Translations under genes and position numbers: made by a program | In this document: piece by piece, positions 35,125 through 47,346 of the stretch | Numbering within the stretch: position 1 is the first letter of the stretch | Layout of the letters: each line of letters opens with the position of its first letter | Assembly: GCF_019679435.2 (NCBI RefSeq) | Contig: NZ_CP139781.1 | Coordinates: forward strand, 4,311,753-4,375,752 | Direction: 5' to 3' | Length of the DNA: 64,000 nucleotides | DNA from: Actomonas aquatica | GTDB taxonomy: Bacteria > Verrucomicrobiota > Verrucomicrobiia > Opitutales > Opitutaceae | The notes under the pieces: generated by a model | The model's input: the letters and a program-made list of their open reading frames with translations, nothing else | The model's database searches: none | What the model was told of the DNA's origin: nothing

Positions 35125-35148
35125 AGCGGCCGAGACGGCCGCTGCTAC
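35125..35148 (-). repeat. REP-like element (GTAG + hairpin)
   Basis: Identical stem and loop (AGCGGCCG-AGA-CGGCCGCT on the plus strand) to 8240-8263. Confidence 0.7.
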
Positions 35149-35163
35149 ACCAGGACGGGAGAT

Positions 35164-35187
35164 GTAGCCGCGGCCGTGTCGGCCGCG
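35164..35187 (+). repeat. REP-like element (GTAG + hairpin)
   Basis: GTAG, C, stem CGCGGCCG, loop TGT, stem CGGCCGCG; a head-to-head partner of 35125-35148, matching the arrangement at 8240/8279. Confidence 0.7.
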
Positions 35188-35394
35188 TGGCGGGGCGGTG
35201 GTTTAAGGTAGCAAAGGGAGCGAAGAGGTGGGCTGACGCACTGGAACGACGCGGTCGAGACGCCCGCGTCCACCTTCGGAGTGTGTTTGGGGTGGACCGT
35301 GGCCTCCTGATACGGTCGGCGGTGGAGAGGCTCTGTTTTCCTCTGTTCTCTCCTGTAAAACTAAACCTTACCGGCGCGTCACCACGTCACCACG

Positions 35395-39313: not shown

Positions 39314-39420
39314 GGTGGACCGTGACCTCCGGGCGCGGTCTGCGTTGGAGTGGCGACGGTGGCGGGGGGGGATCGGGCTGACGCACTGGAACGACGCGGC
39401 CGGGGACGTCCGCGTCCACC
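39314..39420. repeat. RAYT-associated palindromic unit 1
   Basis: Starts GGTGGACCGTGACCTCCGGG, ends GACGTCCGCGTCCACC. The ends are imperfect inverted complements (GGTGGAC/GTCCACC). The unit starts exactly 120 bp before unit 2. Confidence 0.85.
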
Positions 39421-39433
39421 TTGCGAGGAGTGC

Positions 39434-39542
39434 GGTGGACCGTGACCTCCGGGCGCGGTCTGCGTTGGAGTGGCGACGGTGGAGGGCCGGGGGATCGGGC
39501 TGACGCACTGGAACGACGCGGCCGGGGACGTCCGCGTCCACC
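39434..39542. repeat. RAYT-associated palindromic unit 2
   Basis: 109 bp copy of unit 1; differs mainly in the G-rich centre. Starts exactly 120 bp before unit 3. Confidence 0.85.
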
Positions 39543-39553
39543 TTGTGAGGAGA

Positions 39554-39656
39554 GGTGGGCCGTGACCTCCGGGCGCGGTCTGCGTTGGAGTGGCGACGGT
39601 GGAGGGGGGGCGGGCTGACGCACTGGAGCGACGCGGCCCGGAGGTCCGCGTCCACC
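39554..39656. repeat. RAYT-associated palindromic unit 3
   Basis: 103 bp copy; its right end GCCCGGAGGTCCGCGTCCACC is the near-perfect complement of the left end, giving a 10 bp ACCTCCGGGC/GCCCGGAGGT stem plus an outer 7 bp stem. It ends 43 bases before the transposase start. Confidence 0.85.
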
Positions 39657-39699
39657 TTCTTGAGTTGCGGCCTACGTTCTACGGTGGTGCGGTTTCGGC

Positions 39700-40152
39700 G
39701 TGGATGACGTGAGCCAGAATCGCTTTCCGGGGCGGCTTCACCATCAGGTGCCGGGGTGGGTGACAGCGGGGGCGGTGTTCCACATCCGGGTGAGGGCGGT
39801 TGGAACTGTGCTCACGGAACCTGAGATCGCGGAGGCGATGCTGGAGTCCGTGCGGTTTTATCACGAAACGGGTCGTTGGCATGCTGTGCTGGTGCTGCTC
39901 ATGCCAGATCATCTTCACGCCCTGCTCGCGTTTCCGCCTGATCGGGAAATGTCTAAGGGGATAGGCGCGTGGAAGGCGTTTCAGGCAAAAGAGCTCGGGG
40001 TGGTTTGGCAGAGCGGTTTTTTTGATCATCGCATTCGGCGCGAGGAAGAGCTGGCGACGACGTGGGACTACATTCGGCGAAATCCGGTGGTGAAGAAGCT
40101 ATGCAAGACGGAGGAGGATTGGCGCTGGTGCTGGTCGTCGTCTCGGGGCTGA
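39700..40152 (+). CDS. REP-associated tyrosine transposase (RAYT, Y1/IS200-like)
   Basis: A 150-residue single-domain HUH transposase. The metal-binding motif is MPDHLHALLAF (HxH at H71, H73). Helix region: VVWQSGFFDHRIRREEELATTWDYIRRNPVVKKL, with Y124 in DYIRRNPV as the likely catalytic tyrosine. This WQ-GFxDHxIR..Y-I--NP pattern is diagnostic for RAYTs. It lacks the partner TnpB and terminal features of IS200/IS605, as expected for domesticated RAYTs that mobilise REP sequences. The start is the GTG at 39700 (a second GTG at 39709). Three palindromic units lie immediately left and one immediately right, strongly suggesting they are its substrate. Confidence 0.9.
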   Translation: MDDVSQNRFPGRLHHQVPGWVTAGAVFHIRVRAVGTVLTEPEIAEAMLESVRFYHETGRWHAVLVLLMPDHLHALLAFPPDREMSKGIGAWKAFQAKELGVVWQSGFFDHRIRREEELATTWDYIRRNPVVKKLCKTEEDWRWCWSSSRG

Positions 40153-40170
40153 CGGACGGGACGGGTTTGA

Positions 40171-40275
40171 GGTGGACCGTGACCTCCGGGCGCGGTCTGC
40201 GGTGGAGTGGGCTGACGGTGGCGGTGGAGTGGGCTGACGCACTGAAACGACGCGGCCCGGAGGTCCGCGTCCACC
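40171..40275. repeat. RAYT-associated palindromic unit 4
   Basis: 105 bp copy starting 18 bases after the transposase stop. Both ends carry perfect ACCTCCGGGC / GCCCGGAGGT arms within GGTGGAC..GTCCACC; the centre contains a partial internal duplication of GTGGAGTGGGCTGAC. Confidence 0.85.
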
Positions 40276-47196: not shown

Positions 47197-47346
47197 GCGG
47201 CCCGGAGGTCCGCGTCCACCTTGAGAATGCGGGGCGGGTGGACCGTGACCTCTGGGCGCGGTCTGCGGTGGAGTGGGCGCGGGCTGACGCATCGACGTGA
47301 CGTGGCCCGGATCGCCGCGGTCGCGGGACAGGGGTCCGCGTCCACC
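47197..47346. repeat. RAYT-associated palindromic unit 5 plus a right-end fragment
   Basis: 47237-47346 matches units 1-4 (starts GGTGGACCGTGACCTCTGGG, ends GTCCGCGTCCACC). It is preceded by a lone right-end fragment GCGGCCCGGAGGTCCGCGTCCACC-like at 47197-47220. It lies in the divergent gap between the genes at 46425 and cstA, 7 kb away from the transposase. Confidence 0.8.

Follow-up and report, generated by a model that had tools for sequence, protein, structure and literature searches.

The gene at positions 39700–40152 of the window, the 64,000-nt stretch of DNA analysed here (positions 4311753–4375752 of the one-contig 6.11-Mb genome of Actomonas aquatica), very probably forms a REPtron with the repeats around it, that is, a single-copy RAYT within a BIME array of its own REP family. 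The arrangement is classical: it is a textbook BIME/REPIN family, and it adds one more genome to a known system. New here is a large RAYT clade with repeats that nearly all start with GTGG rather than GTAG.

A RAYT Gene in an Array of Inverted REPs

The RAYT, a domesticated transposase, sits between four units of about 105 bp, which have the ends GGTGG-AC...GTCCACC. The initial annotation described three units starting in 120-bp steps at 39314, 39434, and 39554, with another beginning at 40171, 18 bp past the stop codon that ends at 40152. These coordinates were confirmed, and the unit ends GGTGGAC and GTCCACC are present as exact inverted repeats. The complementarity of ACCTCCGGGC and GCCCGGAGGT in units 3 and 4 was likewise found, together with the fifth copy at 47237–47346 and partial copies at about 35230 and 47194. 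REP copies were counted with a covariance model (R1) and by a pattern search. The features of the window are as follows, with R1 scores given for the REPs.

39700–40152, + strand: RAYT (TnpA-REP) gene, GTG start, 150 amino acids (NF047646, Y1_Tnp, 4er8, and AlphaFold2 model)
39314–39340, + strand: REP, left member of head-head dimer 1, 45.7 bits
39393–39420, - strand: REP, right member of dimer 1, variant with a 10-nt apex, 43.0 bits
39434–39460, + strand: REP, left member of dimer 2, 45.7 bits
39515–39542, - strand: REP, right member of dimer 2, 43.0 bits
39554–39580, + strand: REP, left member of dimer 3, 41.9 bits
39630–39656, - strand: REP, right member of dimer 3, 47.2 bits
40171–40197, + strand: REP, left member of dimer 4, 18 bp past the RAYT stop, 45.7 bits
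40249–40275, - strand: REP, right member of dimer 4, 47.2 bits
35248–35274, - strand: REP, paired tail-tail with the REP at 35291–35317, 40.9 bits
35291–35317, + strand: REP with a decayed apex, 36.6 bits
47194–47220, - strand: REP of the same family as those flanking the RAYT, 36.9 bits
47237–47263, + strand: REP, left half of the fifth copy, 42.7 bits
47299–47346, - strand: REP variant of 48 nt whose apex is enlarged, forming the right half of the fifth copy, 23.2 bits (weak)

The protein contains the HUH motif His-71–Leu-72–His-73, a WQ motif at residues 103–104, and a predicted catalytic Tyr-124. The HLH at 71–73 and Tyr-124 are at the positions first reported for the transposase. Among 56 aligned proteins, His-71, His-73, Trp-103, Gln-104, and Tyr-124 are invariant or almost so. 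Strand β1 carries the signature H28-x-R30-x-R32. The score against the Pfam profile Y1_Tnp is over the cut-off. Against the NCBIfam model NF047646 (REP_Tyr_transpos) the protein scores 79.5 bits (E = 2.2e-22), which marginally misses the curated cut-off of 80 and is a point against the REPtron account. The AlphaFold2 model has a mean pLDDT of 90.1 and places β1 at residues 26–33. The closest solved structure in both sequence and fold (TM 0.70) is 4er8, a TnpA-REP with a REP hairpin bound. The assignment of the gene as a RAYT is thus borne out by the family model and by the sequence and fold matches. Within 400 bp of the gene there are six REPs upstream and two downstream, so that inverted REPs flank it on both sides. 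The features by which TnpA-REP proteins are recognized, namely HUH, a single tyrosine, WQ, the (marginal) family match, and the flanking inverted REPs, are all found at this locus.

The HUH/Y1 superfamily is shared with insertion sequences of the IS200/IS605 type, and the modeled fold also resembles the IS608 and ISDra2 transposases. If this were such an element, the repeats would be its subterminal hairpins and the whole would be mobile. This is extremely unlikely. The gene is single-copy, with no other match in the genome above 36% identity. Its flanking hairpins, by contrast, number 119, nearly always with no gene; no second close copy of the gene with its ends was found in the genome. The GTGG foot and the best matches to REP_Tyr_transpos and 4er8 also indicate a TnpA-REP. 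A TIRYT (PMC3733652) was rejected: such an element has long terminal inverted repeats that bear no relation to GTRG repeats, and the flanks here are GTGG-footed REPs.

Structure of the REP

When the genome was searched with unit 4, 59 matches were obtained, many of which span only 27–30 nt of one unit end. The repeat is the single 27–28-nt end rather than the 100-bp unit, since the spacers vary from place to place and 42 copies are solitary. In each REP, a 7-bp stem stands on a GTGG foot and is followed by a purine-purine mismatch, 2 further base pairs, and a short pyrimidine-rich loop, in the pattern GGTGG-AC-NNN-G, A/G, inner stem and loop (usually TCC), G/A, C-NNN-GTC. The foot GGTGG is present in 110 of 114 copies. 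Above the 7-bp stem, the same copies have A.G (78), G.A (28), another mismatch (3), or a standard pair (5). The mismatch is therefore retained in 109 of 114, and A.G swaps with G.A (p = 1e-7 in a Fisher test of the distinct sequences, uncorrected for relatedness). In E. coli, a bulge conserved in the REP is needed for TnpA-REP activity (PMC8266576), which makes the mismatch a plausible point of recognition.

Differences between the stems are compensated. In unit 1 of the window the left end is GTGG ACCGTG/CGCGGT; read on its own strand, the right end is GTGG ACGCGG/CCGCGT. Across 18 distinct REP sequences, 98.8% of cells are paired, with four doubly changed pairs and 30 double-change cells. 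Pairing falls to 46% or less when the stem partners are slid against each other, a lenient control because the structure was derived from the same sequences. The conserved foot and apex, combined with freely changing but compensated stems, hint at the parts of the REP that the enzyme may recognize.

The initial annotation took the unit to be of a different structural type, a single hairpin of about 105 bp with long arms and a loop of about 50 bases, unlike classical REPs and BIMEs of about 35 bp. The ends are indeed exact inverted repeats, and every whole unit is predicted to fold as single-stranded DNA into a long hairpin (-27.8 to -33.9 kcal/mol). This predicted preference counts against the REPtron account, and the long hairpin clearly beats shuffled sequences for unit 4 only (z = -4.4). 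Because the folding energy favors the long hairpin, energy was dropped as a discriminator between long and local pairing, and covariation was preferred. Local pairing holds at 357 of 364 stem positions (98%) across 26 head-head dimers, versus 233 of 364 (64%) for the long-range, arm-to-arm stem, and the differences between left and right are compensated locally. Together with spacers from 21 to 143 bp (one of 311) and the solitary copies, this makes a functional long hairpin very improbable; it would not be new in any case, as a long doublet hairpin is the published description of a REPIN (PMC3116915). Each unit instead consists of two ordinary inverted REPs, arranged as ordinary head-head dimers or BIMEs. 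The predicted long hairpin is compatible with local hairpins as the recognized parts.

Enlarged apices of 46–48 nt were observed in REP variants at G000:C1:1681637, 1688415, 1691098, and 3725780 (G000 being the present genome) and at 47299–47346 of the window. The first four have a second small hairpin, CCCGCC...GGCGGG, at the apex, as if inserted.

Distribution of the REPs in the Genome

The covariance model gives 119 REP matches in the genome at E ≤ 1, the last four of which (E > 0.1) are weak. A strict one-end pattern finds 85 copies compared with 0 for the reversed control. Chance does not account for these numbers, and the genome-wide multiplicity expected of the repeat is evident by both the unit 4 search and the model. 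The matches form 64 clusters, in which neighbors are arranged head-head 29 times, tail-tail 26 times, and head-tail never; tail-tail spacers are 5–27 bp. With genes predicted by a codon-usage gene finder written for this analysis, 111 of the 119 REPs lie outside genes, in regions of which 78% is coding sequence. Fifty-three sites lie between convergent genes and 8 between divergent genes. The four REP types that flank the RAYT together make up 27 of the 119 copies, of which 19 lie far from it, and they include the first and third commonest types of the genome.

The repeat is thus a GTRG-footed imperfect palindrome of high copy number that is extragenic and alternates in orientation with spacers. 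An alternating, extragenic, multicopy pattern is a published property of REPs and BIMEs (PMC2817692, PMC3733652). Inverted doublets, as in REPINs, are present in this one genome sequence. Searches of the locus in Rfam gave no match, and no similar unit was found in PLSDB plasmids.

Other repeats and RAYTs were seen in the same genome. At 35125–35188 the window contains a tail-tail dimer of a second REP family with a GTAG foot, whose likely RAYT is at G000:C1:5784732–5785121, flanked by about 12 copies of that REP. A different repeated hairpin, near GGCTGCGAGTTTACTCGCGCTGCGTTGCC, occurs at about 28881 of the window and at G000:C1:4277396, 4277601, and 4114310. The genome has ten genes of the RAYT family, so some REP copies could be acted on by another enzyme. 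Five of the ten encode proteins of about 310–340 residues and have no obvious GTRG repeats flanking them.

Relatives of the RAYT and Their Repeats

A scan of GTDB species genomes identified 475 encoded relatives, and the best 80 of these are mostly from Verrucomicrobiota, with others from Lentisphaerae, Kiritimatiellales, and one Acidobacteria record. Repeated GTRG hairpins adjoin the gene at 87 of 102 RAYT loci (66 GTGG and 21 GTAG). The loci in genomes G017 and G001 have the same dimer architecture with different stems. Two relatives (L066 and L067) have an in-frame stop codon, TAG and TGA, respectively, exactly at the invariant tryptophan of the WQ motif. Model R1 had no match in seven genomes of the same genus, which indicates that the REP family is patchy.

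That the repeats are the substrate of the adjacent RAYT was the central proposal of the initial annotation. Their REP-like character, multiple copies, and adjacency to the gene stood up; that they are cognate to it is suggested by this proximity and by the same arrangement in the relatives.

Genome G024 belongs to a different genus of the family, and the model gives 62 matches to GTGG REPs there (loci L340–L359). All 16 REPs that were read in detail have the foot GTGG and the apex ACCTCCGGG, with different stems. Neither a RAYT nor Y1_Tnp was detected in G024, whose assembly is 97% complete and fragmented, so that a RAYT may have been lost at a contig break. These REPs are apparently an orphan population, which counts against the REPtron account. 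Retention of REPs where no RAYT was detected, as well as the preference for sites between convergent genes, would fit repeats that are kept mainly as host RNA or DNA elements, such as terminators, mRNA stabilizers, or gyrase sites, with the RAYT link as a relic. We consider this reading improbable, since a conserved single-stranded foot and a covarying mismatch are superfluous for a terminator, and both the foot and the adjacency of RAYT and REP are kept across many genomes. A host role and the REPtron account are not exclusive, and both can hold.

Proposed Mechanism

By analogy with TnpA-REP of E. coli and Marinomonas, the RAYT of the REPtron would bind the single-stranded REP hairpin through the foot and the mismatch and would move or duplicate REP doublets in trans. 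Tyr-124 would cut at a dinucleotide chosen by the foot. A change from GTAG to GTGG has been shown to allow cleavage at CC, and still at CA (PMC8266576), so CC or CA is the predicted cut site for GTGG, against CT or CA for GTAG. The 120-bp steps may represent tandem duplications of one head-head dimer.

Foot Type and Strand β1

A first tree, built from 100 RAYTs, puts the GTGG loci on one side of a branch (SH-aLRT 98). An enlarged tree of 187 RAYTs contains a 79-row clade with a support of 100 that includes the present gene and carries H-x-R in β1. With feet called by an automatic hairpin finder, loci of the H-x-R type have GTGG in 68 of 69 scorable cases, 60 of them with exactly H28-R30-R32, and loci with threonine at residue 30 (F-x-T) have GTAG in 59 of 62. 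H-x-R as a requirement for GTGG was rejected, because L088, L263, and L264 combine F-x-T with repeats of the GTGG type.

Strand β1 is among the regions that contact GTAG in the E. coli co-crystal (PMC8266576), and this suggests a specificity switch in β1. The clade may have switched its foot specificity from GTAG to GTGG once, as β1 changed from F-x-T-x-(C/N) to H-x-R-x-R, and the arginines could read the extra guanine; we propose this tentatively and regard it as somewhat doubtful. Two changes at residue 30 suffice on the tree, other columns change on the same branch, and the independent-pairs test of foot against residue 30 has only 3 usable pairs. The switch happened essentially once, so the link between foot and β1 is a hypothesis. 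If it is true, the predicted cut site would shift from CT to CC. The GTGG-foot clade beside its GTAG-foot kin is a natural experiment on how these enzymes read their guide tetranucleotide, with three candidate residues, His-28, Arg-30, and Arg-32.

Comparison with Known Systems

The locus resembles the REPtrons of E. coli TnpA-REP, Stenotrophomonas, and Pseudomonas (PMC2817692, PMC8266576) in having a single RAYT flanked by inverted GTRG-footed hairpins, with BIME arrays at the gene, alternating orientation, and extragenic copies. It differs from them in its GTGG foot and its host, a member of Verrucomicrobiota. The E. coli RAYT has F-x-T-x-N in β1 in contrast to H-x-R-x-R here, and the two proteins are about 20% identical in the fold alignment.

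REPs in Verrucomicrobiota are not new and have been published before, including some with a GTGG foot. Opitutus terrae is highly enriched in REPs, and most of its GTAG-20 family has a GTGG foot (PMC3733652). Its GTAG repeat families share with the present REPs the phylum, GTRG-footed hairpins, head-head and tail-tail dimers, and the presence of several REP families per genome; GTAG-20 was compared by description only. GTGG feet are also known in some TnpA-REP groups (PMC6006769) and in Pseudomonas fluorescens (PMC2817692). The GTGG-footed REPs of P. fluorescens SBW25 (PMC2817692) differ from the present ones in their stems and in the RAYTs to which they belong. The REPINs of SBW25 (PMC3116915) are similar to the present units in being inverted REP doublets of about 100 bp that occur in tandem copies including their flanks, alongside many singlets.
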